This document shows, one piece after another, positions 11,146-58,916 of a stretch of DNA of 64,000 bases. Under the pieces are notes generated by a model, which saw only the letters and a program-made list of their open reading frames with translations, searched no databases and was not told the origin of the DNA. Origin of the DNA: an uncultured Methylophaga sp. (lineage in GTDB: Bacteria > Pseudomonadota > Gammaproteobacteria > Nitrosococcales > Methylophagaceae); the NCBI GenBank assembly GCA_913055695.1, contig CAJXKF010000002.1, positions 310,001 through 374,000 on the forward strand, given 5' to 3'. Numbering within the stretch: position 1 is the first letter of the stretch; every line of letters starts with the position of its first letter. A program made the position numbers and the translations under genes.

Positions 11146-11162
11146 GAATCGAGTAGCGTTCA

Positions 11163-11981: not shown

Positions 11982-11982
11982 T

Positions 11983-12990: not shown

Positions 12991-12992
12991 AT

Positions 12993-14599: not shown

Positions 14600-14604
14600 C
14601 AGCT

Positions 14605-14958: not shown

Positions 14959-14994
14959 CGCCCGGCGTTACCCAGCAAAACTCAAAAAATTTAT

Positions 14995-15768: not shown

Positions 15769-15770
15769 TA

Positions 15771-16397: not shown

Positions 16398-16421
16398 TAC
16401 CGTGTCAAGGAACTAAAATCA

Positions 16422-16456
16422 CATCCTCTGAGTCCGTTTGATGAAATAAGAGGATG
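16422..16456 (+). promoter_or_regulatory. Hairpin covering the ribosome site of the 16461 gene
   Basis: CATCCTCT (16422-16429) pairs perfectly with AGAGGATG (16449-16456) across a 19-nt loop. The 3' arm is the ribosome binding site of the ATG at 16461, so the fold would hide it. Confidence 0.4.
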
Positions 16457-16460
16457 ACTG

Positions 16461-17184: not shown

Positions 17185-17282
17185 GACTATCCTTTTTTGA
17201 TTTATCTGTGTATGGGGATATTAATAGCCATTATCGCAGTCTAGTTGCGAACAATGCGTGAAAAAAACAACGGGGTGATCTC

Positions 17283-17588
17283 ATGCAAACCAAACTGATC
17301 CTGGCGGCAGTCGTTACACTGATATTCAGCTCTGCAGCAGCGCTGGCGCAGGACGGCCACAAGCAATGCGGCATGATTGCTTCATTGACCGGCGACTATT
17401 ATGTTCAGCGGCTGGAAGGGAAAAGCAAAGCCCAGATGCAGCAGGAAACGCCGCCGGAGTTCATTAACAGTGAGTTCTTCCGAACGGTTGATTTGGCCAT
17501 TAATCTGGCATTCACTTTTGATGATTCACTGAATGAAGATCAGGTCGAAACCCAGGTCTATGACAGCTGTATCAGTCATCACCCCTGA
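17283..17588 (+). CDS. Small secreted protein, function unknown
   Basis: Not recognised. The 101-residue protein has a clear Sec signal peptide (about 1-22, ending ALAQ) and a mature part with two cysteines (KQCGMIA and YDSCISHH), a pattern like the 16461 gene product on the other side of the chelatase, though the two do not align well. A GGGGTG ribosome site precedes the ATG. Its stop is 1 nt from the end of the convergent 17590 gene. Confidence 0.7.
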   Translation: MQTKLILAAVVTLIFSSAAALAQDGHKQCGMIASLTGDYYVQRLEGKSKAQMQQETPPEFINSEFFRTVDLAINLAFTFDDSLNEDQVETQVYDSCISHHP

Positions 17589-17589
17589 T

Positions 17590-17967
17590 TCAAAGCGATA
17601 AGTGTGAGCGGTGGCGATCACAGCAGGTGATAAGATGACCACCACGGCGAAACTGATGAGCTTCATCACCACAGTACATGCATAGTTGTACTGAACGCAT
17701 CTGTGCCTTTTTGATGATCTCGCCGATATCCTTGTTGCGATTGATAACCTCGCAGGTCAGTTTGCCCATATGTTCCTCAATAAAAATAATCCGGGGTAGA
17801 AACATACGCTGCCGGCGTTTGAGATTGATTTGCTGAGCTACATCCTCTATCTCCGCGCACATCTGATAAACCAGGTCGAACCAGCCATCAGGGACAGTAA
17901 TCTGGTGTTCTCTTCCCAGAGAAATCGGGCAACGGAGTTTGAGGCGGGCTTTCTGAGACGCTTTCAT
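17590..17967 (-). CDS. Putative zinc-finger protein resembling phage hypothetical proteins
   Basis: Function unknown. The 125-residue protein has the layout GWFDLVYQMC, then IEEHMGKLTCEV, then a C-terminal CMYCG...TCCDRH cluster that could bind one zinc ion. I recall the same layout (GW-x2-L-x4-C, then K-x-G-x-L, A-x3-S, CxxCG, and Cx2H) from short hypothetical proteins common in phages and plasmids; this is inference from pattern. The ATG at 17967 is chosen because the longer frame (ATG at 18006) starts inside a terminator hairpin, yet there is no ribosome site before 17967, so the true start is uncertain. Confidence 0.65.
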   Translation of the reverse strand: MKASQKARLKLRCPISLGREHQITVPDGWFDLVYQMCAEIEDVAQQINLKRRQRMFLPRIIFIEEHMGKLTCEVINRNKDIGEIIKKAQMRSVQLCMYCGDEAHQFRRGGHLITCCDRHRSHLSL

Positions 17968-17977
17968 AGTCAGGTCT

Positions 17978-18009
17978 AAAAAAATGGATGGCACAGGGCG
18001 TGCCATCCA
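17978..18009 (-). terminator. Intrinsic terminator after the EAL gene
   Basis: On the - strand a perfect 10-bp stem (18009-18000 with 17994-17985), a 5-nt loop, then seven T (17984-17978). It lies 107 nt after the EAL gene and only 11 nt before the start codon of the 17590 gene. Confidence 0.85.
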
Positions 18010-18020
18010 AAGTCAACCAA

Positions 18021-18029
18021 GATATAGCA
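18021..18029 (-). promoter_or_regulatory. Possible extended -10 for the 17590 gene
   Basis: TG-C-TATATC on the - strand. Transcription would begin near 18014, placing the terminator hairpin at the very 5' end of the message. No -35 box is apparent. Confidence 0.25.
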
Positions 18030-18115
18030 AGGATAAAGATGCTGCTATGGCAAGCAGCACATCATTACTGACAAGCATAACGGTAAAAAATTCACTGGCA
18101 CAGAAATAAATTTGT

Positions 18116-19792
18116 TCAGTGTTGCCAGTGAAAACCATTTTGATGCTGCCTGTGCCAGTCAATGAAATTTTTCTCTGGCACAGGCCGGGAAATAAAATAG
18201 CCCTGAGCCATATCACAGCCAATATCACCAAGAAACTGCATGACTGAGGCATTTTCGACACCCTCGGCAATCGTGGTGAGGTCAATTTTATGCGCGAGAC
18301 TGACAGCGGCTTCAATGATATGGATGGCATCCTGCCCATGTGGCAGGCGGTGGACAAATGACTGATCAATCTTCAGATGGCTGATGGGTAACTGATGAAG
18401 ATACTGCAGCGAGGAGTAACCGGTACCGAAATCATCGACAGCGATCTGAATACCGGCATCGGCGAGCTTGGTCAGCTCCCGTATGGTGTGATTCATATCT
18501 TTTATCAAGGCGCTCTCTGTCACTTCCAGCTCAAGAAACTCACCACTGAGGCCATATTCAGTCAAAAGCTTGAATATATTGTCGGCAAAATCCGGCTGAC
18601 ACAGGTTATGCGCAGAAATATTGACTGCGACTGGAACCGAGATCGATTGCTGCTGAAAATATAGCGCTGTACGGATGGCCTCGGACAGCACGAACTCAGT
18701 CAGCAGATGAATCAATGTGCTGCTTTCGGCACAGGGAATGAAGGTGCCGGGTGGAATACTTCCTCGGATTGGGTGCTCCCAGCGCATCAGCGCCTCAACG
18801 CCATGCAGTTTGCCCGAATGTATATCGATTTTGGGTTGATAATGAAGTTTGAGCTGATTCAGATCAATGGCTTTCATCAGCTCGCCTAACAGCGACAGGT
18901 TTTCCCTGGTGGCCAGTTTAATAGAGGGTTGATATTCGACAAACTCGAGCAGTGAGTCATTGGCCGCACTGAGCGCCGACTCTGCCTGTTGCAGATAAAT
19001 CCCCGGATCATCATGCTGTTCATCAATCGCGACATAACCCATCCGCGAGTTAATATGAACAGGAATACCCTGAAATTCATAGGGCAGTCGTGCCGAACGA
19101 TTCAAGTCCAGCAACAAGTCATTCATATTCTGTGCTTCAATCTGTTCGATCAAAGCACTGACTTCTTCGGTATCTGCCCGGTAAACCTGTCCTCGGTTAA
19201 TCAGCACATGATTGAAACGGTGGGCAGTCTGACGGATGATACTCTCGATGACTTCATGACCGAAGGCGGCCTTCAGTTCCATGGTGCTGTTAACGGACAG
19301 GACCAGCAATATCCTGTTGTAGGATGGCATTCGGACTCGGTCACGCATCACGCTGAGGTCATCCATCAAAGCCAGTCGATTAGGCAGCTTTGTGGCAATA
19401 TCATGGCGTGACATCCAGTGTAGATGACGGATATAAGCTCTGACCGTATCACTGGCAATGCCGCTCAAGGTGCCTATCAGAATAAAAAAGCCAGCGCGGT
19501 AAAGCCAGTTGAGCGTGGCCTGCATTTCGCCTGTGATGACATCTATGGGCATAAAGGGCCCGACTATCAGCCCGCCCAGTACAGCTATGGCAATGCCGCC
19601 TTTGACGCCATAGGCCATACCTGACAGCACGATAGGAACATACATGGAGTGAGAGTAGACATATTTGATGCCGCCGGTCATATAGACAAACAGCCCAACA
19701 GCGGCCACCATCAGTATCAGCAACGGCGCTGCAGAATAATTGATGATCTGCTTGTGGCGGTTAAACCACTGAAAAACATCCACGGTGTGCAT
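18116..19792 (-). CDS. Membrane EAL phosphodiesterase with degenerate GGDEF domain
   Basis: Predicted c-di-GMP phosphodiesterase. The 558-residue protein has an N-terminal membrane region with four or five helices (about 18-120), a GGDEF-like domain (about 130-290) in which the active-site loop reads RADTEE, so it cannot be a cyclase, and a C-terminal EAL domain (about 305-550). The EAL domain keeps the catalytic motifs: EALMRW, NISAHNL, LEVTES, DDFGTGYSS and KIDQSFV. Transcription ends at a strong terminator downstream. The gene lies between the small-protein cluster and cysJI with no clear partner. Confidence 0.93.
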   Translation of the reverse strand: MHTVDVFQWFNRHKQIINYSAAPLLILMVAAVGLFVYMTGGIKYVYSHSMYVPIVLSGMAYGVKGGIAIAVLGGLIVGPFMPIDVITGEMQATLNWLYRAGFFILIGTLSGIASDTVRAYIRHLHWMSRHDIATKLPNRLALMDDLSVMRDRVRMPSYNRILLVLSVNSTMELKAAFGHEVIESIIRQTAHRFNHVLINRGQVYRADTEEVSALIEQIEAQNMNDLLLDLNRSARLPYEFQGIPVHINSRMGYVAIDEQHDDPGIYLQQAESALSAANDSLLEFVEYQPSIKLATRENLSLLGELMKAIDLNQLKLHYQPKIDIHSGKLHGVEALMRWEHPIRGSIPPGTFIPCAESSTLIHLLTEFVLSEAIRTALYFQQQSISVPVAVNISAHNLCQPDFADNIFKLLTEYGLSGEFLELEVTESALIKDMNHTIRELTKLADAGIQIAVDDFGTGYSSLQYLHQLPISHLKIDQSFVHRLPHGQDAIHIIEAAVSLAHKIDLTTIAEGVENASVMQFLGDIGCDMAQGYFISRPVPEKNFIDWHRQHQNGFHWQH

Positions 19793-42374: not shown

Positions 42375-44003
42375 ATGAAAATTCTGTTGCTGTTTCTCTG
42401 TTCTGTCTCATTGTGTCTATCCAGCCCAAGCGCGAGTGCGCAGTCGGCTATCAATCCTTCTAAAAGCATCAAGCTCACTGACGCCGAACAAGCCTGGCTA
42501 AAACAGCATCCGGAAGTCAGCGTCGCTGTCAGTCATGGCTGGGCGCCGGTTGAATTTCTGGGTGAGGATCATCAGTTCAAAGGCATTTCCATTGATTATC
42601 TGAAACTGCTGGAACAAAAGCTGCCGGTCCGTTTTCGTTTCGTACGCTCAGAAGAAGATCCTGCAGAGGAAACCGCTGATTTGCTCTCTGCTGTCGCGGC
42701 CCCCAACAAACTGAATGATTCTGATTACTCAGTCATTGATTCAGCTTTTATGGAAATGCCGTTTGTTATCTTCACCAGGGAAGAAACATACAACATCAAT
42801 GACATAGAAGATCTCAACAACAAAAAAGTCGCCGTATTCCGCTATGGTGCCGCTGCCAGAGCGCTTGAAAAGAATCATCCTCAAATCGAGTTATACAGAG
42901 TGGACATTGCCGATGAGGCACTCGCTGCACTTAACGCCGGTAAAGTAGACGCCTATATGGGTAACCTGGTTGTAATTAACTATGTGGCCAGAAATCTGGG
43001 CTTCGCTAACGTCAAGATAGTCGCTGATACGCCCTACGGGGCCGATCTGTATATGGCCGCAAGGGATGATAAGCCACTACTGCGCTCGATTCTGGCTAAA
43101 GGCCTCAACGCCATTACTCCGCAGGAAAAAAACCTGATCTCCCGTAACTGGGTTGCAGTCACTTATGAGCATAAAACGGATCCAACCCTGCTGATCACCG
43201 TAGCCGGCTCTGCCGCCTGTTTGATTCTGATCTTTGCATTATGGAGCTGGAAGCTGTCCCGCGAAATCCGCTGGCGTAAAGAAGTGCAGGCCGAACTGAG
43301 TATTGCCAGGGAGAGAGCGGAGTCAGCCAACAAAGCCAAGTCCCGTTTTCTGGCCAATATGAGCCATGAGCTCAGAACACCGCTGAATGCGGTTATGGGT
43401 TACAGCCAGCTGATTGACACCAACCCTGAGGGCCATCAGGATGACAAAAAATCCGCCGCCGAGATATTAAAAGCAGGGAAGCATTTATTATATTTAATCA
43501 ATGAGTTGCTTGATCTTTCTAAAGTCGAGTCCGGAAAGATGTCATTGCAGATCAAGGCGGTAGATTTAAATGAGATCGTGAAAGAATGTCTGGTGCTTAT
43601 CGCTCAGTTTGCCGGTGAAAAACAAATTGAAATTCACCACAACAATCAGCAACAGGTGGTGGCTATGGCCGATCAGGGCAGACTGAAACAGGTACTGCTG
43701 AATCTGCTCAGTAATGCCATTAAATACAACCGGCCCGGCGGTAAGGTGTCGATTGATGTCAGCACTCAGGGCCACCATGCCGCTATCGCTATTGCTGATG
43801 ATGGTGACGGTATTGCTGAAGAGCATCTTGAGTTGTTGTTTGAGCCTTTCGAACGTCTCCAAGCAGAAAACAGCAGTATCGAAGGGACCGGTATCGGTCT
43901 GACTATTTCACGCCAGATTGTCGAGTTGATGCGGGGGACAATTTCGGTAGAGAGCAAGTTGGGAGCAGGCAGCCTGTTTGAGGTCAGGTTACCGGTTGTA
44001 TGA
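42375..44003 (+). CDS. Sensor histidine kinase with periplasmic amino-acid-binding-type domain
   Basis: 542-residue hybrid of a bacterial extracellular solute-binding family 3 (PBPb) sensor and a histidine kinase, like a one-lobe short form of BvgS/EvgS. Signal peptide (about 1-23), PBPb domain (about 35-255), one membrane helix (about 273-292), HisKA with H-box FLANMSHELRTPLN (His about 331), and HATPase with N, G1 (DDGDGIAEEH) and G2 (GTGIGLTISRQ) boxes. No receiver domain and no adjacent response regulator are present. Confidence 0.94.
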   Translation: MKILLLFLCSVSLCLSSPSASAQSAINPSKSIKLTDAEQAWLKQHPEVSVAVSHGWAPVEFLGEDHQFKGISIDYLKLLEQKLPVRFRFVRSEEDPAEETADLLSAVAAPNKLNDSDYSVIDSAFMEMPFVIFTREETYNINDIEDLNNKKVAVFRYGAAARALEKNHPQIELYRVDIADEALAALNAGKVDAYMGNLVVINYVARNLGFANVKIVADTPYGADLYMAARDDKPLLRSILAKGLNAITPQEKNLISRNWVAVTYEHKTDPTLLITVAGSAACLILIFALWSWKLSREIRWRKEVQAELSIARERAESANKAKSRFLANMSHELRTPLNAVMGYSQLIDTNPEGHQDDKKSAAEILKAGKHLLYLINELLDLSKVESGKMSLQIKAVDLNEIVKECLVLIAQFAGEKQIEIHHNNQQQVVAMADQGRLKQVLLNLLSNAIKYNRPGGKVSIDVSTQGHHAAIAIADDGDGIAEEHLELLFEPFERLQAENSSIEGTGIGLTISRQIVELMRGTISVESKLGAGSLFEVRLPVV

Positions 44004-44009: not shown

Positions 44010-44612
44010 TCAGCTCGATTGCTGAATATCGTCCTTCATGTCAATATCACGAAAAATACCTTCATCCCCGGCTGATATCGAACAAACGTAGGTTTGTGAC
44101 GAGTGGATAATCTCTCTGGCACCGCTATCACCGGTTAATGCCAGAAGTTGTGGCAGAAAGCGGTAATCAAAGCCCACAGGATGACCGCGGCGACCTTCAA
44201 ACTCGGGAAGGGTGATGGCACTCCCTGCGTTCATGGCTGCGAGGCAATCAGCTATCACGCCACGCTTGAGGTAAGGCATATCAGCCAGACCGATTAACCA
44301 GCCGTCTGCATCCGAATTGGCTCTGATTCCGGCGATAAGAGACTGGCTCATGCCTTGATGAGCAGCTGCGGCAGGAATGAGCCTGAGCTGTGAGGATTCA
44401 TCACAGTCTGCCAGCAGACGGAGCAGGGCAGTATTATCCTTTCTCACCACTACGTTGATTTCAGCAAATACCTCAAGCCAGGGCGATAAGGCCTGCAGAA
44501 TCAGAGGTCTGGATTCACTCCGCACAGTCACCGGGTGCAACAGTTTATCGCTGCCGAAACGGCTCGATTGTCCGGCAGCCAGTACAATCGGGGAGATCTG
44601 TTTTACTGACAT
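44010..44612 (-). CDS. mocA: MobA-like nucleotidyltransferase (MocA type)
   Basis: Probable CTP:molybdopterin cytidylyltransferase producing the cytosine dinucleotide cofactor of xanthine-oxidase-type enzymes. The 200-residue protein has LAAGQSSRFGSDK near the N-terminus and LIGLADMPYLKRG and GRRGHPVGFD later. The N-terminal consensus LAAGxSxRxGxxK is intact. It abuts xdhC (stop TAA directly before the ATG) and is last in the molybdoenzyme operon. Confidence 0.9.
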   Translation of the reverse strand: MSVKQISPIVLAAGQSSRFGSDKLLHPVTVRSESRPLILQALSPWLEVFAEINVVVRKDNTALLRLLADCDESSQLRLIPAAAAHQGMSQSLIAGIRANSDADGWLIGLADMPYLKRGVIADCLAAMNAGSAITLPEFEGRRGHPVGFDYRFLPQLLALTGDSGAREIIHSSQTYVCSISAGDEGIFRDIDMKDDIQQSS

Positions 44613-45599
44613 TTAGCCATTGCTGACGGCACGGATAGCCGGCTGCTGCTTTGACGCTTGACTATGACGGCTGAGTTTAACCAGCTCGGCCAGAATTGAA
44701 ACGGCAATCTCGGCCGGGGTTTTACTGCCAATATCGAGTCCGACCGGCCCACGCAGGCGGGCAATCTGCTCAGCGCTCAGGTCAAACAACGCCAGTCTTT
44801 CACGGCGTTTGGCATTGGTCCGGCTGGAACCCAGGGCACCAATGTAGAAAGCATTGGATTTGAGTGCTTCCAACAGAGCCATGTCATCCAGCTTGGCATC
44901 ATGCGTCAGGGTGATAATCGCGGTGTTTTGATCCGCCGCTATTTTCACCACCGCATCATCAGGCATCATGGCCAGTAACTCACCGTCTTCGCGATGCCAG
45001 GTCAATTGCATTTCTTCACGTGGCTCGGCGACCAGCACCTGGTAATCCAGTGCCGACGCCATTTTAGCTAAATAAGCAGAAGTTTCACCGGCACCAATCA
45101 ACAGCAGCCTTGCTCTGGGGCCATAAACAAAGCTGAGTTCCGCATTTCCCTCGCTGACGGGGTCGCTGTGTTGTGCGCGTCCAATACGGCTTTGTCCCTG
45201 ACTCAAATCAAGCCGGCGCTGAATGCGCTGACGCTGTTCAATCTGATTCAAAACCTGACTCACCCAGCCGGCATCAGTCACTTTCTCTATTGCCAGGCGC
45301 AGTGTCCCACCGCAGGGGAGACGGAAACGGTCCCGTTCTTCAACTGATTCGCCATAAGTCATCAGCCTGACGGTCGTTTCAGCTAACTCACCCGATAACA
45401 CCTTGTCTTTGAGGTCATCCTCAATGCAGCCACCGGACACCGAACCGACAACTGCGCCATCGTCTCGGATAGCGCACATCGCACCGGGTTGCCTCGGGCT
45501 GGAACCATAGGTTTTGAGTACTGTGCTCAGCCAGACAGCATGACCGGCTTGATGCCAGCTCAGGATCTGCCTCAGCACCGTGATGTCTGTACTTTGCAT
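44613..45599 (-). CDS. xdhC: XdhC/CoxI family molybdenum-cofactor insertion protein
   Basis: Chaperone that binds and sulfurates the molybdenum cofactor for xanthine-oxidase-family enzymes. At 328 aa it has the XdhC/CoxI N-terminal domain (GSSPRQPGAMCAI...GSVSGGCIEDDL, about 32-61) and a Rossmann-like C-terminal domain (LLIGAGETSAYLA and YIGALGSSRTNAKRRERL). It starts directly after the iorB-like stop codon (TAGATG), which suggests coupled expression. Confidence 0.93.
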   Translation of the reverse strand: MQSTDITVLRQILSWHQAGHAVWLSTVLKTYGSSPRQPGAMCAIRDDGAVVGSVSGGCIEDDLKDKVLSGELAETTVRLMTYGESVEERDRFRLPCGGTLRLAIEKVTDAGWVSQVLNQIEQRQRIQRRLDLSQGQSRIGRAQHSDPVSEGNAELSFVYGPRARLLLIGAGETSAYLAKMASALDYQVLVAEPREEMQLTWHREDGELLAMMPDDAVVKIAADQNTAIITLTHDAKLDDMALLEALKSNAFYIGALGSSRTNAKRRERLALFDLSAEQIARLRGPVGLDIGSKTPAEIAVSILAELVKLSRHSQASKQQPAIRAVSNG

Positions 45600-47885
45600 C
45601 TAGGCCTCCAGCTGATAACGGATAGGCAGATTACGGATGCGTTTCTGAGTCGCTGCGAAGATGGCATTACACAGTGCCGGCGCAATCGGCGGCATACCGG
45701 GCTCACCGATCCCCCCCAGTGGCTGGTCGTAATTATCTGACGGCATCAGATGCACATTGATTCTGGCCGGCGCGCCATCCATGCGGGTGACCTGATAACC
45801 ATCGAAATTATTCTGCACCGCAACGCCATTTTTAAAGCTGATCTCTCCCAGCATCGCCAGGCTGATACCCATAATGCAGGCGCCTTCTATCTGGGAGCGG
45901 ATTCGTTCCGGATTCACCTGCGGACCGCAATCCACGGCGATATCGACCCTCGGCACAGACACTTCACCGTCATCACTGACATCGACCTCAACTACAGCTG
46001 CGACGTAGGTCACAAAGCTGTAATGTGCGGCCAGGCCCTGACCTTGTCCGGCCGGCAGTTGTTTACCCCAGTCAGCTTTCTCGGTGACATGTTCAATAAC
46101 GCGGCGCAGACGGCCGGTGTTAAGCGGGTAGAGCTCGGGTGATTCGCCGTAATTCCATTCATCCTGCAAGCTGCGTGGATCAATCTCGCGATCCGGACCA
46201 ATCAGTTCCAGCAGGACGTCTTTATGATCGCGTTGCTGCTGATGCGCCATTTCCGCAATAAAGGACTGCACCGCAAAAGCATGCGGAATATTGGATACCG
46301 AGCGGAACCAGCCGATACGAGTATGCGCTTCTGCAGCCGGGTTCTCCAGCTGGATATTAGGCACCGCGAAGGGCACATTGACCACACCCATGCCGATTTC
46401 AAAAGCCTGCTGATGAATGGTGCTGGCATCGAAAGTCGAGACTATCGAAGGTGCTACGGTGCGGTGCAACCAGACTTGTGGCTTGCCTTGCTCGTCAAAG
46501 GCGGCTTCGAGATGTTCAAACGAAACGGTGTGGTAATAGGAATGCTGAATGTCATCCTCGCGGGTCCAGACCAGCTTGACCGGTCTGCCATCCATCGCTT
46601 TTGAGGTCAGCGCCGCTTCGACCAGAAAGTCGGGTTTGGATTTGCGACCGAAACCACCGCCGAGCAGGGTGACGTGAATCATCACCCGTTCCGGTTTGAG
46701 CTTCAGCCATTTGGCGACCGTATCCCGACTGACCTGTGGTGCCTGGGTAGGTGCCCAGACATCACAGCTATCGCCTTTGAAATGGGCTGTGGCTACCGGT
46801 GGTTCCATCGGTGCCTGTGCCAGGTGCGGAATATAATAATCCGCAGACAGGCTGGAATGCGCCGTTTCAAGTGCTTGGTAGGCATCGCCCTGTGAGCGCA
46901 GCACTTTGCCACCCTGTTTATTGGCAGCCTGTTTCATCGCTTCACGGAAAGCTTCCGATTCATACTGGCTGTGCGGGCCGCTGTTCCACTCGATTTTCAG
47001 CTTCTCGCGACCTTTGATTGCAGCCCAGGTATTCTCAGCCACCACGACGACGCCGCCCAGCGGATTGAACATCGCCGGCGGCGGACTGGAGGGCAGTGTC
47101 AGGGTTTTAATCACCCCCGGGACTTTCAGCGTTTCCGAGTCATCGTAGGATTTCAGTGTCTCGCCATAGGCAGGCGGGTGCGCCACCACGGCATAGACCA
47201 TGTTATCGAGGCGCACATCCATGCCGTATTCGGTATGACCGGTAGCGATGGCTTCACCATCGATGTTTTTATTACCGGTCTTGCCGATATAACGAAACTC
47301 CGATGCCGGTTTATAGCTGAAGCTGTCACGATCCGGTACCGGCAGTTCCGCTGCAGATTCAGCGAGTTCACCATAGCCCACCCGACGTCCGGAAGGTTGA
47401 TGAATCACTTCGTGGTTCTGCGCTTTGACTTCACTTGCAGGCACCGCCCACATCGCTGCTGCCGCGGTTTCCAGCATCATGCGCATCGCAGCGCCGACAT
47501 TTCGCATCGGCATGAAGAAATGGCGCACACTGCGCGAACCATCGGTGTCCTGATTGCCGAAGCGTTCTTCATCGCCCCAGGCCTGTTCGACCTTGACCCG
47601 ACTCCAGTCGGCTTCCATTTCATCAGCGACGACCATGGGCAGGCTGGTACGCACGCCCTGGCCCATTTCAGAGCGGTGGGCAACAATGGTGACCGTGCCA
47701 TCAGCCGCTATCGATACAAACACCAGCGGATTATCGACCCAGCCATGCGGCATGGCATTGCGGCCATATTGCGGTTCTTCCGTCGCCGCAGAGAGGCCGG
47801 GCAGCCCCACTGCCAGCACCAGGCCACTGAGGGCAAAACCTTTAACAAAATTACGTCTGCTGATATTGACGATATTATCCTTCAT
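45600..47885 (-). CDS. iorB: Molybdopterin-binding large subunit of an IorB-type hydroxylase
   Basis: Large subunit of a two-subunit molybdenum hydroxylase of the isoquinoline 1-oxidoreductase/aldehyde dehydrogenase group, 761 aa. The N-terminus has a Tat signal (SRRNFVKG then a hydrophobic stretch, about 9-32), so the mature enzyme is periplasmic. Cofactor motifs include [12 protein letters not shown] and, near the C-terminus, [10 protein letters not shown] with the catalytic glutamate. It overlaps the iron-sulfur subunit gene by 11 nt. No FAD subunit is encoded, as in other IorAB-type enzymes. The substrate is not evident from sequence; aldehydes or N-heterocycles are plausible. Confidence 0.9.
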
Positions 47886-48345
47886 GACCGGTCTCCATAT
47901 TATTGGCTGCCTGTTTTATGGCATCACGAATACGGGTGTAGGTACCGCAGCGACAGATATTGCCGCTCATCGCAGTGTTAATGTCATCGTCGCTGGGATT
48001 GGGCTTGGAATTAAGCAAGGCGGTGGCAGAAACGATCTGGCCTGACTGACAGTAACCACACTGCGGTACATTGTTATCCAGCCAGGCAGCCTGAATAGCA
48101 CGACCCGCCGGCTGTTCGGAAATTGCTTCAATGGTCGTCAGTTTTTTATTTTCGGCCTGTTTCACCGGGGTGACACAGGAACGTATAGGCTGGCCATCCA
48201 GCAGCACGGTACAAGCGCCGCAGAGCGATTTGCCACAACCGAACTTGGTACCGGTCATACCCAACACATCCCGAAGTGCCCAGAGTATCGGCATATCTTC
48301 TGCGACGTCGACCTGGTGAATCTGTTCATTGATGGTGATTTTCAT
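47875..48345 (-). CDS. iorA: [2Fe-2S] small subunit of an IorA-type hydroxylase
   Basis: Electron-transfer subunit of the same enzyme, 156 aa. The N-terminal plant-type ferredoxin motif reads [16 protein letters not shown]...SC and the C-terminal helical [2Fe-2S] domain has QCGYCQSGQ and GNICRCGTY. No Tat signal is present, so it is exported with the large subunit. The ATG at 48345 (AAGGA 6 nt upstream) is preferred over a TTG two codons earlier. Confidence 0.94.
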
Positions 48346-48381
48346 AATCAATCCTTCAAGTTTGACAATGCGGATTAAGGT

Positions 48382-49329
48382 TTAAGCTGTGCTGGCAGTT
48401 GCATGACGAGAGCGGACATCCTTACTCGGCGGTACACCGAATAAACGGGCATATTCACGGCTGAATTGGGACACGCTGGAGTAACCGACATACATACAGG
48501 CAGTACTGACATCCATCATCCGGGTCAGCATCATCTGTTTGGCTTCATGCAGACGCAGTTCTTTCTGGAACTGGAGTGGTGTCATGCTGGTAACCGTTTT
48601 AAAGTGGGCATGAAAGGCTGACACACTCATATTACTCAGTGTCGCCAGTGCTTCCACCTTCATAGGTTCTTTAAAATGTTCACGGATCCAGCTGATAGAT
48701 TTGGAAATTCTCTGCAGGCTCGAATCACTGGTGGCAATCTGGGCCACCAGTGTGCCGATATCACTGCGTAGCAGTCGAATAAATATCTCATCAATGATGA
48801 GAGGCTGCAGAAATTCGGCATCCTCCGGTTGTGCCAGTAATTCAAGCAGGCGGATACCGGCCTCGACAATCCGGGGATTGGCTTTGCCGATAAACAGGGC
48901 TCTCGGATGCTGAACCCGTGGCACGCCATGGGGAAAGGCTTTCATCGTCAGTTCAGCAAGTTTCTGCGGCTCGATATCAACGATAAGACACAGATAGGGT
49001 TCAGTCTCACTGGCTTTGACAATTTTGGCCGAAACAGGGACTTCGGTGGAATAGACCGCCATCCGTGAATTGTCGTAATCGTAGACATCCTGACCAATCA
49101 ACACCCGTTTTGCGCCTTGCGCGATAATGCACATACCTGGCTTGGTGACGGCACGGGTCGGGTTGGTATCCTTACTGGACGTCCGCAGTAAATGCACGCC
49201 GGGAAGCGGCAGGTCAAACAGGCCGTCATGCGGTGCGTAGCGACTAATCAGCTTGGCTAATGATGCCCTGGCAGCAGCACTGTCATCGCTACTGGCTTTA
49301 AGCTCATCAATTTGGGTTAATTCAGTCAT
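48382..49329 (-). CDS. AraC family regulator with AraC_N domain
   Basis: Transcription activator of 315 aa. The N-terminal AraC_N (cupin-like) domain (about 25-180) includes the stretch PGMCIIAQGAKRVLIG typical of this subgroup; YqhC, which responds to aldehydes in E. coli, belongs to the same domain family. The C-terminal two-helix-turn-helix domain (about 210-305) has ALATLSNMSVSAFHAHFKTVTSMTPLQFQ. The ATG at 49329 is chosen because earlier in-frame codons lie in the promoter region with the shared operator. It is followed after 36 nt by iorA, so it may regulate the molybdoenzyme. Confidence 0.9.
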   Translation of the reverse strand: MTELTQIDELKASSDDSAAARASLAKLISRYAPHDGLFDLPLPGVHLLRTSSKDTNPTRAVTKPGMCIIAQGAKRVLIGQDVYDYDNSRMAVYSTEVPVSAKIVKASETEPYLCLIVDIEPQKLAELTMKAFPHGVPRVQHPRALFIGKANPRIVEAGIRLLELLAQPEDAEFLQPLIIDEIFIRLLRSDIGTLVAQIATSDSSLQRISKSISWIREHFKEPMKVEALATLSNMSVSAFHAHFKTVTSMTPLQFQKELRLHEAKQMMLTRMMDVSTACMYVGYSSVSQFSREYARLFGVPPSKDVRSRHATASTA

Positions 49330-49381: not shown

Positions 49382-49442
49382 ATTGTAGATTCCGGCAGCA
49401 GCAATGACTTGCCTGAAACTACAGCCTTTTTGACTGATACTC
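49382..49442 (-). promoter_or_regulatory. AraC-type operator and promoter upstream of the regulator gene
   Basis: 61-nt element matched by a second copy at 55411-55471 (41 of 61 identical, 30 of the first 35). On the - strand it has half-sites TCAGTCAA (49437-49430) and TCAGGCAA (49416-49409), exactly 21 bp apart, and a TACAAT -10 (49387-49382). Transcription would start near 49375. Autoregulation is inferred. Confidence 0.7.
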
Positions 49443-49495
49443 CAGCAATTGGTCCGGTTTTTTTAAACTCACCGGCTAAGAGAGCGGCACAGTTG

Positions 49496-50917
49496 TCAGC
49501 TTTTTAACTGCCAGCCACCTCCCAGCGCTTTGTAGATAGCAATCAGCTTAAGTACCGCACTGATGTCACTGTTTGCGAGTGTGTCCTCGGTTTCCAGCAG
49601 GGTGCGCTCGGCATCCAGCACATCCAGGAAGTCATCGTAACCTTCATCGAAACGCTGTTTCGCCAGATCAGCAGAATGCTTTGCTGACTTTGCCGCTTGC
49701 TGCAGCTTAGCGCGTCGTTCTTCCTCACGGGCGAAATCACTGACTGCGGTCTGGGTTTCTTCCAGTGCTGCCAACACGGTTTTATCGTAATTGGCCAGTT
49801 GAGCCAGGCTGCGGGCATCAGCCTGATCAATGCGGGCACGAATGCTGTCGCGGTTGAATACCTGCCATTCCAGTGAAGGACCAATCGAGCCTGCCAGGGC
49901 GGTAGTGCCGAAGCTGCCGAGCTTGGTGCCGACAAACCCCAGCGAGCCAAGCAGGCTCACTTTCGGGAATAAATCAGCTACGGCGACGTTGTATGAAGCC
50001 ACACTGGCCGCCAGATTGCGCTCTGCCGCACGGATATCCGGGCGTCGTTTCAATAAAGATTCTGCATTTCCGACGGCGACGGTGACCGGCAGCTCGGGCA
50101 GGGACGCTGTCGCCGACAGGCGGCTGCGTAGGGCATCCGGAACTTGCCCCGTCAACACCGATAAACGGTTTATCGCGGCGGAAACCGCTGCCTGCAGTGG
50201 TGGAATGGTGGATTGGGTCAGGGTCAGCTGGGTTTCAGCCCGCGACACATCCAGCGCTGTGGCGCGACCATTATCCAGCAAGACCTGAGTCAGCTCATAG
50301 GTTTCAGCCTGGTTGCTCTGGTTGCGTTCGGCAATATCCAGCCGGTGCTGGGCGCCGCGAAGTTCGACATAGGCCCTGGCAACCTCTGCTGCAATGGTGA
50401 CATAAATCTGCTGTAAATCGGCTTCGGCAGATTCCGCCAAAGCCTGCTGTGCTTCAATCCTTGATGACACCCGGTTGAACAGATCCAGTTCCCAGCTGGC
50501 ATCAAAGCCGGCCTGGAAACTGTTGTTGCTTCTGGGCAGGTTGGCACCATTCGGGCTTTCCTGTGAATTCAGGTTACGCGAGGCATCGCCGGTGGCATCG
50601 ACAGCAGGCTGCCGGTCATAACCGACTTCACGCCGTAAAGCCCGGGCCTCCTGCAGATTGGCGTAGGCGATCCGCACATCCGGATTGGCATTGAGCGCGG
50701 TGTTGACCAGTTCGGTCAGCAGCGGATCATTGAATTCACGCCACCAGTCAGCAACCGGTTTTTTGTTTGCCTGGAAACGGTCATTTCCGGCTTGTTGCAA
50801 TTCAGTCTCCGACACCGCTTCGGGCGTCTCCGGTGCCTGATAATCGCGAAATGAGGCGCAGCCGCTGGCTGCGATGGAAACGCCGATAAGTACCGTTAGT
50901 AAACGTCGCTTTGTCAT
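49496..50917 (-). CDS. Outer-membrane efflux lipoprotein (OprM/NodT type)
   Basis: Outer-membrane channel of the tripartite pump, 473 aa. Lipoprotein signal ending in the box AASGC (Cys about residue 19). Two OEP repeats follow, with the long helical hairpin motifs ARAYVELRGAQHRLDIAERN and RPDIRAAERNLAASVASYNVA. The start ATG at 50917 overlaps the RND gene stop by one base (TGATG). OprM-type proteins often end with a Gly-Trp-rich tail; here GGGWQLKS. Confidence 0.93.
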   Translation of the reverse strand: MTKRRLLTVLIGVSIAASGCASFRDYQAPETPEAVSETELQQAGNDRFQANKKPVADWWREFNDPLLTELVNTALNANPDVRIAYANLQEARALRREVGYDRQPAVDATGDASRNLNSQESPNGANLPRSNNSFQAGFDASWELDLFNRVSSRIEAQQALAESAEADLQQIYVTIAAEVARAYVELRGAQHRLDIAERNQSNQAETYELTQVLLDNGRATALDVSRAETQLTLTQSTIPPLQAAVSAAINRLSVLTGQVPDALRSRLSATASLPELPVTVAVGNAESLLKRRPDIRAAERNLAASVASYNVAVADLFPKVSLLGSLGFVGTKLGSFGTTALAGSIGPSLEWQVFNRDSIRARIDQADARSLAQLANYDKTVLAALEETQTAVSDFAREEERRAKLQQAAKSAKHSADLAKQRFDEGYDDFLDVLDAERTLLETEDTLANSDISAVLKLIAIYKALGGGWQLKS

Positions 50918-53900
50918 CACACAGACTCCGAAGACAGCTTATCCGAGGGCTTTTTGACCCGAATCAGTGCCAGTTTGCGGCACAACACATAAAACACCGG
51001 TGTGAATATCAGCCCGAATGCGGTCACACCGATCATGCCCGAGAATACGGCCACGCCCAGTGCCTGGCGCATTTCCGCACCGGCACCGGTGGCAATCACC
51101 ATCGGCACGACACCGAGAATGAAAGCAAATGAGGTCATCAGGATAGGGCGTAAACGGAGGCGGGCGGCTTCCACCGCAGCCTGCCACATGTCGCGACCCT
51201 GATCTTCCAGTTCGCGGGCAAACTCGACGATAAGAATGGCGTTTTTGGACGCCAGACCCACCAATACCACCAGACCTATCTGGGTCAGGATATTGTTATC
51301 CATACCGGCGATATAGACGCCGGTAATGGCCGACAGGAGACACATCGGCACAATCAGAATAATGGACAGTGGCAGCGTCCAGCTTTCGTACTGGGCGGCC
51401 AGCAGCAGGAAAACAAACACCACCGCCAGCACAAAGGTGAGAACCGCCGTATCGCCGGTGGATTTCTGCTGATAGGCAATCTCCGTCCACTCATAGCCAA
51501 TGCCATCAGGCAGGATCTGCGCGGCCAGATCTTCCATCGCATTCAGTGCTTCACCTGAGCTGTAGCCGGGGCTGGCACTGCCCATCACACCGGCCGCCGG
51601 ATACAGGTTGTAGCGAGGCACACGGGAGGGGCCAGAGGTGTTTTCCACCGTCGCAAAAGAGCCAATCGGTACCATGTCACCGTGGTTATTTCGCACCCGG
51701 ATGCGAAGGGCATCATCAATGCTGAGACGTTCTTCGGCTTCAGCCTGCGCTGTGACCCGGAAGGTTCGGCCCAGATAATTGAAGTCATTGATATAGACCG
51801 AGCCAATAAAGACTTCCAGCGCTTCAAACACATTATCCACCGGCACGCCCAGACGCTCGGCCTTGTTGCGGTCGATATCCAGATACAGCTGTGGATTATT
51901 GGTATTGAAGAAAGTAAACGCCGCTGTCGTAGCCGGACTGTCAGGACTGTTGGCAGCTGCTGCCATATCTTTGGCTGCCTGTTCCAGCACAGCCAGACCG
52001 CGTCCACCCTGGTCCTGTAACATCATTTTAAAACCACCGGCATTACCGATACCAGGTACCGGCGGTCGTTCAAACACGGCAATCTGGGCATTTTTGAACG
52101 CGCCTGCGACGGCACGCATATTGTCCAGAATGCTTTGATATTCAATGCCTTCAGCAAGACGTTTATCAAATGACTCGAGTGGGGTGAAAATGACCGCCGC
52201 GTTGGATTGCAGCGTACGGGTCGCACCGGAGAAACCGGTAAAGCCCACCGTATTAGCAAGGCCCGGCACCTTCAGCATTTCTTTACTGACAGCCTGCACC
52301 ACCTCATCGGTTTCATTCAGTGACGCCCCTTCCGGCAGGGTAATCGCGACAATCAGCGAACCCTGATCCTGTGATGGAATAAAGCCGGTCGGCACGCGGT
52401 CGAATTGAAATGCAGTCAGCGTCATCAGACCGCCGTAAATCAGCAGCATGATAAAGCCCATCCGAATGGTTTTGCCGACAAACCAGCCGTAACGATTCGA
52501 CAGGCCGCTCATGCCTTTATTAAAGCCATTAAAGAAGGCTTTGATCGGCGATTTGTACCATTTGACCGGCTTGTCATCATGCGGCTCCACCTTCATCAGA
52601 ATGGCGGCCAGAGCAGGGGACAGGGTCAGCGATACCGCTACCGAAATCATGGTGGCCACGGCCACCGTCAAACCGAAGGCCTGGTAGAACTTGCCTGAAA
52701 TCCCCTCCAGGAACATTGTCGGCAGGAACACCGCGACCAGCACCAGTCCCATTGCAATCAGCGCGGAACCAACCTCGTCCATGGTTTTACGGGCAGCATC
52801 ACGCGGCGACAGGCCATTGCGCAGGTTGCGTTCCATATTTTCGACAATGACAATGGCATCATCCACCACGATGCCAATCGCCAGCACTAGCCCGAACAGG
52901 GTCAGGTTGTTGAGCGAATAACCGAGCGCTGACATCACGGCGAAGGTGCCGATCAAAGACACCGGAATCGCCACAATCGGAATAATGGCAGCGCGCCAGG
53001 TCTGTAGAAACACCAGGATCACGATCACCACCAGGAACACGGCTTCATAGACAGTCAGTTCAACAGCTTCAACCGACTGTTCAATAAACTCGGTGGGGTT
53101 ATAGGCAAACTCGTATTCGATACCCGGCGGGAAATCCTTGGCGATATCGGCCATTTCAGCCTTGAGGGCCTTCGTGGTGGCAATCGCATTGGAACCCGGA
53201 CGCTGGAAGATAGGCAGTGCCACGGCGGGTTTTTCACCCAGGTAGCCTTTGGTGACATACTCCTGAGCGCCCAGTTCGATACGAGCCACATCTTTGAGGC
53301 GAACAATCCGGCCGTCCTCGGCTTTAACGATAACTTCGCCAAACTGTTCCGGTGTTTCCAGCCGGCCCTGGGTCTGGACAATATATTCGTAGTAGTTCTG
53401 CTCGGTTTGGGGCGCACTGTTGAGCGTGCCACTGGCAACCTGCACGTTCTGACTGCGCAGGGCATTGATAATATCGCCAGCAGCAATGCCGAAGGACTGC
53501 AGTAGATCCGGTTTTAACCAGATCCGCATCGCATAATCGGCGGCACCAAACACCCGCACCTCACCGACACCTTCAATTCGGCGCAGGCGGTCGCGCACAT
53601 TCAATACACCATAGTTGGCGAGATAATTCTGGTCATAGGTCCCGTCAGGAGAGGACATATTCACCACCAGCATCAGGTCCGGCGTGTTTTTCTTGGTGGT
53701 GACGCCCATGCTGCGAACCACTTCAGGCAGACGCGGTTCTGCAATGGCGACGCGGTTCTGCACCAGTACCTGGGCGGTATCCAGATCCGTGCCCAGTTCA
53801 AAGGTGATAGAGAGTGTCATACTGCCGTCGGCAGAAGCCTGTGAATGCATATAGAGCATGCCTTCGACACCATTCACTTCCTGCTCAATCGGTGTGGCTA

Positions 53901-54087
53901 CCGTTTCCGCCACCGTTTCGGCAGTGGCCCCAGGGTAATTGGCCGAGACCTGGATGGTCGGTGGGGCTACAGAAGGGTATTGTTCTATCGGCAAGGTCAG
54001 AAAAGCCATCGCGCCGACAATCACAGTGATAATCGAGATCACCGTGGCGAATATCGGTCTGTCGATAAAAAACTTGGGAAATTGCAT
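50917..54087 (-). CDS. RND multidrug efflux pump inner-membrane subunit (AcrB/MexB type)
   Basis: Proton-driven hydrophobe/amphiphile efflux transporter of 1056 aa. Hallmarks of HAE1 pumps are the N-terminal FFIDRPIFATVISI helix, GVEGMLYMHSQASADGSMTLSITFELGTD in the porter domain, GIVVDDAIVIVENMERN in helix 4 with the two Asp residues of the proton relay, and the last-helix region ASKNAILIVEFARELEDQG. It is the middle gene of a mexAB-oprM type operon; 9 nt separate it from the adaptor gene. Confidence 0.97.
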   Translation of the reverse strand: MQFPKFFIDRPIFATVISIITVIVGAMAFLTLPIEQYPSVAPPTIQVSANYPGATAETVAETVATPIEQEVNGVEGMLYMHSQASADGSMTLSITFELGTDLDTAQVLVQNRVAIAEPRLPEVVRSMGVTTKKNTPDLMLVVNMSSPDGTYDQNYLANYGVLNVRDRLRRIEGVGEVRVFGAADYAMRIWLKPDLLQSFGIAAGDIINALRSQNVQVASGTLNSAPQTEQNYYEYIVQTQGRLETPEQFGEVIVKAEDGRIVRLKDVARIELGAQEYVTKGYLGEKPAVALPIFQRPGSNAIATTKALKAEMADIAKDFPPGIEYEFAYNPTEFIEQSVEAVELTVYEAVFLVVIVILVFLQTWRAAIIPIVAIPVSLIGTFAVMSALGYSLNNLTLFGLVLAIGIVVDDAIVIVENMERNLRNGLSPRDAARKTMDEVGSALIAMGLVLVAVFLPTMFLEGISGKFYQAFGLTVAVATMISVAVSLTLSPALAAILMKVEPHDDKPVKWYKSPIKAFFNGFNKGMSGLSNRYGWFVGKTIRMGFIMLLIYGGLMTLTAFQFDRVPTGFIPSQDQGSLIVAITLPEGASLNETDEVVQAVSKEMLKVPGLANTVGFTGFSGATRTLQSNAAVIFTPLESFDKRLAEGIEYQSILDNMRAVAGAFKNAQIAVFERPPVPGIGNAGGFKMMLQDQGGRGLAVLEQAAKDMAAAANSPDSPATTAAFTFFNTNNPQLYLDIDRNKAERLGVPVDNVFEALEVFIGSVYINDFNYLGRTFRVTAQAEAEERLSIDDALRIRVRNNHGDMVPIGSFATVENTSGPSRVPRYNLYPAAGVMGSASPGYSSGEALNAMEDLAAQILPDGIGYEWTEIAYQQKSTGDTAVLTFVLAVVFVFLLLAAQYESWTLPLSIILIVPMCLLSAITGVYIAGMDNNILTQIGLVVLVGLASKNAILIVEFARELEDQGRDMWQAAVEAARLRLRPILMTSFAFILGVVPMVIATGAGAEMRQALGVAVFSGMIGVTAFGLIFTPVFYVLCRKLALIRVKKPSDKLSSESV

Positions 54088-54096
54088 AAAAAGTCC

Positions 54097-55263
54097 TTAT
54101 TCCTGTTCCGGCCGTTGCTCAGCAGCTGCGTCATCCGCCTGCACGAGGGTGTCGGGCTCTTGCCACGCCAATTCAACAGGGTTGGGGGTAACGGGCTGGG
54201 CCGCCTGTCGGATCCGCTGAATGCCGTTAATGACCACGCGTTCATTGCCGCTCAGTCCCTGACTGACCACAATCAGGTCGTTATCCAGCAGGTTGCCAAC
54301 CTGCACATACTGCCGCTGTACGGTGTCATTACTATCAACGACATAGACGAACTTTTTGTCCTGGTCGGTATTGATGGCCTTTTCCGGCACCAGAATGGCT
54401 TCGTAGTTGGCTCTGCCCAACAGACGGGCACGGCCGAACAGGCCCGGGTAGATAATGCCGTTGTCATTATTGACGGTGGCAGTAGCCTGAATGGTGCCGG
54501 TAGAGTTATCGACGGCGTTGTCGACAAAGTGCATCTCGCCCTGATGGTAGAACTTATCTTCATCCAGCAGTTTGATGTATATCGGATTCGGCGCGGTATC
54601 GCTGCTTGGACGTTGACCGGCCCGATCCAGACGCAGATATTTGAGCAGATCCGTCTGCGAGCCTTCAAAACGGAAATGAATCGGATTGGTGCTGACGATG
54701 CGGGTTAATACCGTTTCGTTTTCTTCCACCATATTGCCGACATCCACATAGCTGTCGCTGACCTTGCCATCAATCGGAGAGGTGACTTCGGTAAAAGCCA
54801 TTTGCAGACGCGCATTGTCCAGTGACGATTTGGCAATTTGTAATTCCTGAAAGCGGCGATCGGCTTCTTCCTGAGAAATTGCGCGGCTCTCACGCAGATT
54901 CTGGGCGCGTTCCCATTCTTTCTGTGCCAGTTGGTACTGTGCTTTTATCCGCTGTAGTTCATAGCTAAATGGGCGCGGGTCAATGACGTAGAGCACATCG
55001 CCTTTTTTCACCATTTGTCCGTCTTTGAATCTTTTTTCCACCAGGTAACCGGTGACGCGGGCACGTAACTGAACATCGTTAATGGCCTCGAAACGGCCTG
55101 TAAACTCATCCCAGTCGGTCAGCGTATGTTTTAACGGTGTCGCCACATCGACTTCCGGCGGCGGTGGGGGACTTGGAGCAGCGTCGGCATTCTGTGTGGT
55201 ATCGGTGCAGGCTGTGGTGGCCAGCGTTATTAAAAAGACAAAAGCTGAAAATGAAAGTCGCAT
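54097..55263 (-). CDS. RND efflux periplasmic adaptor (AcrA/MexA type)
   Basis: Membrane-fusion lipoprotein of 388 aa. Lipobox TTAC (Cys about residue 20), a proline-rich stretch SPPPPPEVDV, the lipoyl half-motifs around FTGRFEAINDVQLRARVTGYL and a coiled hairpin (about 105-150), then the second lipoyl half with TEVTSPIDGKV. The ATG at 55263 is used; a longer frame to 55302 does not give a signal peptide. First gene of the pump operon, with the AraC-type operator copy about 148 nt upstream of the start. Confidence 0.94.
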   Translation of the reverse strand: MRLSFSAFVFLITLATTACTDTTQNADAAPSPPPPPEVDVATPLKHTLTDWDEFTGRFEAINDVQLRARVTGYLVEKRFKDGQMVKKGDVLYVIDPRPFSYELQRIKAQYQLAQKEWERAQNLRESRAISQEEADRRFQELQIAKSSLDNARLQMAFTEVTSPIDGKVSDSYVDVGNMVEENETVLTRIVSTNPIHFRFEGSQTDLLKYLRLDRAGQRPSSDTAPNPIYIKLLDEDKFYHQGEMHFVDNAVDNSTGTIQATATVNNDNGIIYPGLFGRARLLGRANYEAILVPEKAINTDQDKKFVYVVDSNDTVQRQYVQVGNLLDNDLIVVSQGLSGNERVVINGIQRIRQAAQPVTPNPVELAWQEPDTLVQADDAAAEQRPEQE

Positions 55264-55410
55264 GCTTAAACTCCATGAGAAGGTTGCGTCTGATGAACGC
55301 ATACTTTTATTAAAATCCGGTTAATTGACTGACGCTGACCAGGAAAACCGGCCTGCTGAATGCTGTGCCCGATGTCTCAGGCCGTCATTGGGCTGAGGGA
55401 AGTGATTAGC

Positions 55411-55471
55411 ATTGTAGGTAGAAGCGCGCAGACAAGCTTGCCCAAAACTACAGGCTTGTTGACTGATTCTC
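55411..55471 (-). promoter_or_regulatory. AraC-type operator and promoter upstream of the efflux operon
   Basis: Second copy of the 61-nt element. On the - strand it has TCAGTCAA (55466-55459), TTGGGCAA (55445-55438), the shared CTGTAGTTT between them, and TACAAT (55416-55411). Transcription should start near 55404, giving a leader of about 140 nt that contains a 7-bp stem (CGGCCTG/CAGGCCG). Confidence 0.7.
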
Positions 55472-55540
55472 GTTAACCCTGGCTGTTTGTAAACGGGGTA
55501 CAGTGCCGCTTTGAAACAGGTCAGTGCACGCTTTGTCAGG

Positions 55541-56817: not shown

Positions 56818-56851
56818 TCCTATACGTTTTTATTATGGATGGGTGCTGAAG

Positions 56852-57781
56852 ATGGACATCAAAATGCTCAGAAGCTTCATCAGTGTGGCTGACAGCGGGA
56901 GTTTTTCAGCGGCAGCGAGAGAGCTGCATACAGTGCAACCGGCGATCAGCCGGCATATTTCACAGTTGGAAGAGTCGCTGGGCGTGGCACTGTTCAACAG
57001 AAACTCGCGGGAAGTGCTGATCACATCGGCCGGTAGACAGTTGCTGGTCGATGCCAGAAACATTCTGGCGCAGCTGGAGCAGGCGAAAGTGAATGCCCAA
57101 CGGGCAGATAAAGGCGAAATCGGCAGCCTTAAAATTGCGCATATGCCTTCGGCCTGTCTGCCCTTCATGGCGCGGCTGGTGAGCAGTTATCTGGAAGATT
57201 ATCCCAATGTCCATATCAGCCTGTTTGAAATGACAGTCACCGAACAATTGCAGGCTTTTGAGGAAGACAGAATCGACATTGGCTTCTCTCGGCCGATGCC
57301 GGCTACCTTAAGTGATGCCTTTGTCAGTCATGATATCTATATCGATCGGCTGGTCGTGGTGGTCAATGAGCAGCATCCCTTTGCTGACAGGCGGTCAATT
57401 GAGCTGGACGAACTGCAGAATGAGGATTTTATTCTGTTTAACCGGGAGGAAGCCGTAGGCCTGTTCGATGACACCATATTATTGTGCCGGGAAGCCGGTT
57501 TCTCACCTAACATTATCAGTCAGCCCCGACATATGCAGACGTTACTGACTGAGGTCGCCGCCGGCCTTGGTGTTGCCATCGGCCCGGAATGCATCAGAAA
57601 ACAGCACACGCTGGGTTGTCATTTCCTCAGCATTGAAGGGGTCGACAAAACCATCCCGTTACAACTTCACTTCAAAAAAAGCAATCATGCCGCCACCGTT
57701 AAACCCTTTGTAGACAACACTTTAAGACTTAAACCTGAAGTTGTTCGCAGTATGGAAAATCCCCGCTTAACAGATTTGTAA
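56852..57781 (+). CDS. LysR family transcriptional regulator
   Basis: 309-residue regulator. The N-terminal winged helix has MLRSFISVADSGSFSAAARELHTVQPAISRHISQLEESLGVALF, followed by a type 2 periplasmic-binding-like effector domain (about 92-295). It resembles the BenM/CatM group of aromatic-compound sensors, but the effector is unknown. The ATG at 56852 is preferred over a GTG three codons upstream. The divergent MFS gene is the likely target. Confidence 0.92.
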   Translation: MDIKMLRSFISVADSGSFSAAARELHTVQPAISRHISQLEESLGVALFNRNSREVLITSAGRQLLVDARNILAQLEQAKVNAQRADKGEIGSLKIAHMPSACLPFMARLVSSYLEDYPNVHISLFEMTVTEQLQAFEEDRIDIGFSRPMPATLSDAFVSHDIYIDRLVVVVNEQHPFADRRSIELDELQNEDFILFNREEAVGLFDDTILLCREAGFSPNIISQPRHMQTLLTEVAAGLGVAIGPECIRKQHTLGCHFLSIEGVDKTIPLQLHFKKSNHAATVKPFVDNTLRLKPEVVRSMENPRLTDL

Positions 57782-57789: not shown

Positions 57790-58767
57790 TTAGAAACCTT
57801 GACGGCCATGCGGCTGATCCAGATCCAATAATGGCCCGGCGGGCACAATACCCGTCGGGTTGATGGTGCCGTGACTGCGATAATAATGCTGTTTGATATG
57901 GGCCATATTGACTGTGTCCGAAACGCCGGGCCACTGATACAGTTCACGCAGATAGCCTGACAGCTTCGGGTAATCCGCAATACGTTTCAGATTGCATTTG
58001 AAGTGGCCAAAATAGACAGCGTCAAAGCGGAGCAGGGTTGTAAAAAGTCGCCAGTCCGCTTCTGTCAGCTCGTCACCAAGCAGATAGCGTTGTTGTGACA
58101 GTCGCTGGTCAATATTGTCCAGCGCTTCAAAGAGCGGCATGACGGCTTCTTCGTAGGCAGCCTGAGTGGTGGCAAAGCCTGCCTTGTAAACACCATTATT
58201 GATGCGGTCATAAACATAAGCATTGATATCATCAATCTCGGCTCGTAATGCCTGAGGGTAAAAGTCAGCGTTTCTGGCCCCCAGTTGATCAAAAGCCGAG
58301 TTGAACATACGAATAATCTCGGCGGATTCATTGTTCACAATCCGATTCTGTTGTTTGTCCCACAATACCGGCACGGTCACACGGCCGGTGAACTCCGGCT
58401 CGGCAGCGGTATAGATCTGATGCAGAAAATGCGCATCATAAACCGGGTCTGCAATGACGCCATCATCAGCCGCGAAGGTCCAGCCGTTTTCGCCCATATA
58501 AGGGTTCACCACCGACAGCGAGATCATCGATTCCAGCCCCTTGAGTTTACGGAATATGAGAGTCCGGTGTGCCCAGGGGCAGGCCAGCGAAACGTAGAGA
58601 TGATAACGGTTTTTTTCAGCCGAGAAGCCACCCTCACCGCTGGGACCGGGCTTACCATCTGCGGTTACCCAATGCCGGAATTTAGACTCATCGCGTTTGA
58701 AGCGACCCTGATTTGAGGCCGTGTCATACCAGCGGTCATGCCAATGCCCGTTAATAAGCAGTCCCAT
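57790..58767 (-). CDS. yqjG: Glutathionyl-hydroquinone reductase
   Basis: Xi-class glutathione transferase that removes glutathione from glutathionyl-hydroquinones. The 325-residue protein has the catalytic motif SLACPWAHRT (Cys about residue 63), VVNPYMGENGWTF, the strongly conserved DPVYDAHFLHQIY and VPVLWDKQQNRIVNNESAEIIRMFN, as in YqjG/ECM4 proteins. It ends 9 nt from the convergent LysR gene. Confidence 0.94.
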   Translation of the reverse strand: MGLLINGHWHDRWYDTASNQGRFKRDESKFRHWVTADGKPGPSGEGGFSAEKNRYHLYVSLACPWAHRTLIFRKLKGLESMISLSVVNPYMGENGWTFAADDGVIADPVYDAHFLHQIYTAAEPEFTGRVTVPVLWDKQQNRIVNNESAEIIRMFNSAFDQLGARNADFYPQALRAEIDDINAYVYDRINNGVYKAGFATTQAAYEEAVMPLFEALDNIDQRLSQQRYLLGDELTEADWRLFTTLLRFDAVYFGHFKCNLKRIADYPKLSGYLRELYQWPGVSDTVNMAHIKQHYYRSHGTINPTGIVPAGPLLDLDQPHGRQGF

Positions 58768-58916
58768 GACTGTCTCCTGTCACTATCTGATGGCTATTCT
58801 GGCTGTTTAGAGACCACAAGGTTCCAAATCCCCCCAGTCATGAAGGGTTTACTGTCAATCATCGATTAGGCAGAGTGAGCATGATTGCCTGAGCTGAATT
58901 GGACATTGGATACCGC

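Follow-up and report, generated by a model that had tools for sequence, protein, structure and literature searches.

At araBAD, AraC acts on direct half-sites of 17 bp (araI1-I2) that are set 21 bp apart, the downstream one lying at the -35 position. YqhC of Escherichia coli is also an activator, and glyoxal and furfural activate the yqhD promoter to which it binds (PMC5297802); gSELEX identified the yqhC-yqhD spacer as its only binding region (PMC8249747). The yqhD promoter elements are given as -35 TTGAGA and -10 CACAAT in PMC6115493, which cites Lee 2010. No printed YqhC motif was found in the literature searched, and PMC8464067 mentions a supplementary figure on YqhC sites. Within the yqhC-yqhD spacer we find CTGGAGAAATAGGCAAG-N4-TGGCAGAAATGAGCATT, a 21-bp repeat followed by 21 nt to CACAAT; the -35 TTGAGA overlaps the end of the second half-site and the -10 begins 21 nt after it. 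In Pseudomonas aeruginosa, the AraC-family electrophile regulator CmrA raises MexEF-OprN under glyoxal, methylglyoxal and cinnamaldehyde, by way of MexS and MexT (PMC10333786).

In the 64,000-nt stretch of Methylophaga DNA analysed here (the window), a YqhC-type activator of paired operator-promoters very probably drives directly both its own molybdoenzyme operon and a MexEF-OprN-like pump. The regulator is encoded on the minus strand at 48382-49329, as are the genes of both operons described below, and combines an AraC_N domain (PF06719, 2.9e-44) with the AraC-type HTH (HTH_18, 2.7e-18). It shares 34% identity over 265 aa with E. coli YqhC (E 1e-40), including the MSVSAFH of the first HTH recognition region, and the SQFSRE region is also conserved. 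Its likely start is the ATG at 49329; the mechanical open reading frame begins further upstream, at the TTG at 49404, but this longer frame overlaps the -10 box and an ortholog has a stop within the N-terminal extension. Thiol sensing through a conserved cysteine was considered and discarded, the alignment having no invariant cysteine.

The regulator gene is followed by the putative genes of a xanthine dehydrogenase/aldehyde oxidoreductase-family enzyme. These comprise a [2Fe-2S] subunit recognized by profile matches (47875-48351), a molybdopterin-binding catalytic subunit (45600-47885; MoCoBD_1 and MoCoBD_2, with a Tat-like RRNF leader read off the sequence), a predicted XdhC/CoxI-family maturation factor (44613-45599; the nearest NCBIfam model, below its cut-off, is the XdhC-family aldehyde oxidoreductase maturation factor) and a MocA-like molybdenum cofactor cytidylyltransferase (44010-44612; again the nearest model, below cut-off). 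The pump operon encodes an RND periplasmic adaptor (54097-55263), whose nearest NCBIfam equivalog is MexE at 308 bits against a cut-off of 714, an RND (HAE1) permease (50917-54087; ACR_tran, 1100.9 bits) and an outer membrane efflux channel of the NodT family (49496-50920; profile matches). The adaptor likely starts at the ATG at 55263, at a lipoprotein signal; in the adaptor ortholog of a related genome (G050) a TGA lies inside the N-terminal extension. The search revealed no terminator-like site separating the pump genes from araC, so read-through from the pump into araC may strengthen the regulatory loop.

Upstream of the two operons, the minus-strand blocks 49442-49382 and 55471-55411 align without gaps over 61 nt, with 41 of the 61 positions identical, 30 of them within the first 35, and TACAAT closing both. 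A recount gave the same figures as the first-pass annotation, and the similarity is far above chance (binomial tails of 1.9e-11 for 41/61 and 2e-13 for 30/35). When the araC block was compared with every position of the window on both strands, the runner-up after the pump block reached 32/61. Across the source genome the checks consisted of pattern searches. The proposed scan for two half-sites 21 bp apart, run as TYAGNCAA-N13-TYNGGCAA-N21-TANNNT, returned exactly two sites in the 2.61-Mb genome at zero mismatches, those of araC and the pump; one or two mismatches gave no match in the same genome, and three gave 28 matches against 32 in the control, which is background. The longer pattern GNAGNNTYAGNCAAN7GNAGNNTYNGGCAAG, allowing up to three mismatches, again retrieved only the araC and pump sites of this genome, and the control gave 0. 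Taken alone, an identity of 41/61 within one genome would also fit a decayed duplication; that the blocks are merely a recent duplication or shared repeat with no regulatory role is nevertheless scarcely credible, as the identity is concentrated in the -10 and the half-sites, these elements reappear at fixed spacing in E. coli and other divergent genomes, and the source genome holds no further copies.

The 8-mer TCAGTCAA occurs at 49437 and 55466, and TCAGGCAA or TTGGGCAA begins exactly 21 nt later. The first-pass annotation had proposed 8-bp half-sites 21 bp apart; the spacing is exact in both copies, but the length was too short. In the araC copy, CTGGAGTATCAGTCAA and CTGTAGTTTCAGGCAA match at 13/16 positions as a direct repeat with lag 21, while every other lag from 15 to 27 gives at most 6/16, and for this reason the true unit is taken as two half-sites of about 16 bp, CTGNAGNNTYAGNCAA, with a 21-bp period. 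The 8-mers are the 3' part of this unit, and the element begins 8 nt before TCAGTCAA. About 16 bp is the half-site length expected for an AraC-type subunit with two HTH motifs. The araC-operon operator thus defined consists of half-site 1 (CTGGAGTATCAGTCAA, 49430-49445), which is kept in orthologs, and half-site 2 (CTGTAGTTTCAGGCAA, 49409-49424). In the pump operator, half-site 1 (AACGAGAATCAGTCAA, 55459-55474) is placed by the block match and the genome pattern, and half-site 2 (CTGTAGTTTTGGGCAA, 55438-55453) by the block match and the spacing; the full-length repeat at lag 21 is weaker there (7/16), with GAG/TAG and CAA still in register. All four half-sites lie on the minus strand, as do the two TACAAT boxes (araC operon, 49382-49387; pump promoter, 55411-55416). 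Each box begins 21 nt past the second half-site, as previously noted, and at neither one did the search turn up a sigma-70 site whose -35 is good, which agrees with the earlier description.

The layout closely resembles that of E. coli YqhC at yqhD/dkgA, where an AraC_N regulator likewise has tandem half-sites of about 17 bp placed 21 bp apart with the second at -35, and the -10 follows the second half-site by exactly 21 nt. It also resembles AraC at araBAD in its direct half-sites with 21-bp spacing and in the -35 location of the downstream one, but the effector domain here is AraC_N (PF06719) and the half-site sequence differs. In contrast to E. coli YqhC with its single target region (PMC8249747), the regulator described here would act on an RND pump and on the operon of a molybdenum oxidoreductase, and it would read its own promoter in cis instead of lying divergent to a reductase gene. 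No yqhD/dkgA gene adjoins the regulator; relatives carry a yahK-like gene instead. The operator pair is of a known, YqhC-type kind with an unusual set of targets.

To derive a motif independently of the family, we took 26 AraC_N homologs from outside Methylophagaceae, roughly 29-43% identical and including E. coli yqhC, and collected 250 nt of upstream sequence from each. The commonest 7-mer found de novo was AGGCAAG, the core of half-site 2 of the araC operator, present in 11 of the 26 regions; across 200 shuffles no 7-mer exceeded 9. AGGCAAG served as the seed of a 61-column matrix, which was refined solely on the homolog regions, free of any Methylophagaceae sequence, and used to score the 128,000 positions of the window's two strands. 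The pump site (55495, minus strand) ranked first at 16.1 bits, followed by the araC site (49466, minus strand) at 16.0 bits, with a small margin over the third-ranked position at 15.3. Taken singly, the scores barely exceed the shuffled maxima of 9-15 per strand, and it is the two ranks together that carry the weight; that the top two of 128,000 positions would by chance be the sites named beforehand is very unlikely. Both sites have tandem AGGCAAG-type half-sites 21 bp apart with a -10 box 21 nt downstream, an arrangement derived here and not taken from a published definition. The earlier proposal of one regulator shared by both sites is supported by the matrix, built from distant homologs yet placing both at the top, and by a -10 position equal to that of E. 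coli yqhD.

A pattern scan of 369 gammaproteobacterial genomes gave 8 matches beyond the source genome against 4 in the control, and only one of them (L134) adjoins an AraC_N gene; a Pfam search of 75 genomes found such genes to be few. A near-perfect CTGCAGGATCAGGCAAG site directed toward a divergent short-chain dehydrogenase is seen in a distant gammaproteobacterium with five AraC_N homologs (G418, L163/L134).

Conservation was followed through 57 genomes of Methylophagaceae, the family of the source Methylophaga. The site is seen in eleven other genomes, before the orthologous regulator, the pump or a yahK-like gene. It lies 5' of the orthologous regulator in G044, G050, G034, G010 and G055 and 5' of the pump in G050. 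In G049 and G032 it precedes a yahK-like zinc aldehyde reductase gene at the head of the pump operon, in G034 a separate yahK-like gene, and in G036, G042, G052, G053 and G054 a yahK-araC pair. Of 16 Methylophagaceae promoters, 15 have the -10 at 21 nt past half-site 2 and the remaining one has it at 22 nt; part of these sites were gathered with a filter on the -10 position, and those gathered unfiltered give the same spacing. The suggestion that an operator of the adjacent AraC_N regulator stands before both operons gains from this pattern, the site being kept upstream of orthologs, of the pump and of the yahK-pump operon. One might suppose that the operators are real but belong to another AraC_N-type protein, with the adjacent regulator merely a target, and a second such protein is in fact encoded on contig C2, at about 488 kb. 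We consider this very unlikely, since this paralog shows a weak relationship (about 58 bits) and lacks a strong site beside it, and since in relatives it is the adjacent regulator that the site accompanies and the motif occurs beside that regulator's distant homologs.

The family comparison also indicates how far each connection extends. No pump site was found in G034, G055, G010, G036, G052, G053 or G054, where regulator and pump are both present; because of these pumps without the site, the link to the pump is lineage-specific and not universal in the family. Conversely, at one locus of the close relative G044 (L089, 5726-7864) the pump, MFS and LysR genes are missing between the regulator and a GST-type gene, and since the araC-type operator is kept there, the autoregulatory site survives at this locus without the pump. 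At another locus (L074 of G049, 6155-18679), one operator is followed by an apparently continuous yahK-adaptor-RND-OMF-araC-FeS-MoCo-XdhC-MocA series; a separate araC site was not found at this locus.

As to mechanism, two regulator subunits would bind in tandem on the half-sites, the second close to the place of the -35, and would recruit RNA polymerase to a promoter that has no good -35 of its own. Through the araC copy the regulator would activate both itself and the FeS, MoCo, XdhC and MocA genes of the molybdenum oxidoreductase operon, and through the pump copy the MexEF-OprN-like pump operon. The assignment of the sites from sequence is strong; from it we infer binding, activation, the direction of control, the inducer and the substrates. 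The system may be likened to CmrA and MexEF-OprN, in that an AraC-family regulator would be joined to a pump whose adaptor is nearest to MexE, though below cut-off; it differs from the CmrA route via MexS and MexT in that the operator here lies directly before the pump.

A LysR gene is located at 56843-57781 on the plus strand by the MFS and pump genes; placed like MexT, it may encode a second regulator. It stays beside these genes in G050, G034 and G055, and in Pseudomonas mexEF-oprN is raised through MexS and MexT (PMC10333786); accordingly, the AraC_N protein could be a repressor or act mainly on its own promoter while the LysR protein controls the pump. Such an arrangement is improbable, given that half-site 2 at the -35 position, a good -10 and a poor -35 make up an activator layout, that YqhC activates from this same layout in E. 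coli (PMC5297802), and that the pump copy of the site is kept in G050. With direct activation by the AraC_N regulator as the preferred reading, we predict that in some methylotrophs chemical stress switches on a multidrug-type pump directly and not via a LysR cascade.

The first-pass annotation had included neither the full half-site length nor the YqhC kinship, nor a likely stimulus. Most homologs that share the operator adjoin carbonyl reductases, which makes a reactive carbonyl or electrophile the likely inducer (glyoxal, furfural, formaldehyde or a quinone). Next to the site-bearing homologs, the divergent genes encode carbonyl reductases (SDR, AKR, Fe-ADH and Zn-ADH) and one ABM-domain protein, which is the gene complement of carbonyl/electrophile detoxification. 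A close yahK homolog is missing from the source genome (best 37%), which has the molybdenum oxidoreductase in its place, and hence the aldehyde link at this locus would come from the molybdoenzyme family and from the relatives. Formaldehyde is an unavoidable intermediate in methylotrophs. If the regulation holds, defence against chemical stress would be linked to drug-pump expression in the methanol-eating Methylophaga.

We lean slightly towards a broader, joint reading, in which a YqhC-family carbonyl-stress regulator of Methylophaga came to control an RND multidrug pump directly, along with a molybdenum oxidoreductase, the operator apparently passed from a lost yahK-like gene to the pump, and AATAGGCAAG-type tandem sites are the operator code shared across the widespread AraC_N family. 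The yahK-like gene at the head of the pump operon in G049 and G032 is consistent with the transfer of the operator. The code proposed for AraC_N/YqhC-type regulators, often found beside carbonyl reductases, would consist of two GNAGNNTYAGGCAA half-sites with a 21-bp period and a -10 at +21, and as a general rule it may prove the more useful result.

Two further features of the window may be mentioned. A lone TCAGGCAA half-site (58858-58913, minus strand) lies before a GST-type, glutathionyl-hydroquinone reductase-like gene (57790-58767); it was considered as a third target (58913, minus strand) and dropped, since it has three mismatches to the full element, a level that occurs at background frequency. 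In addition, the plus strand encodes at 42375-44003 a histidine kinase whose sensor domain is solute-binding-like; its gene is convergent with the molybdoenzyme operon and is kept in G044.
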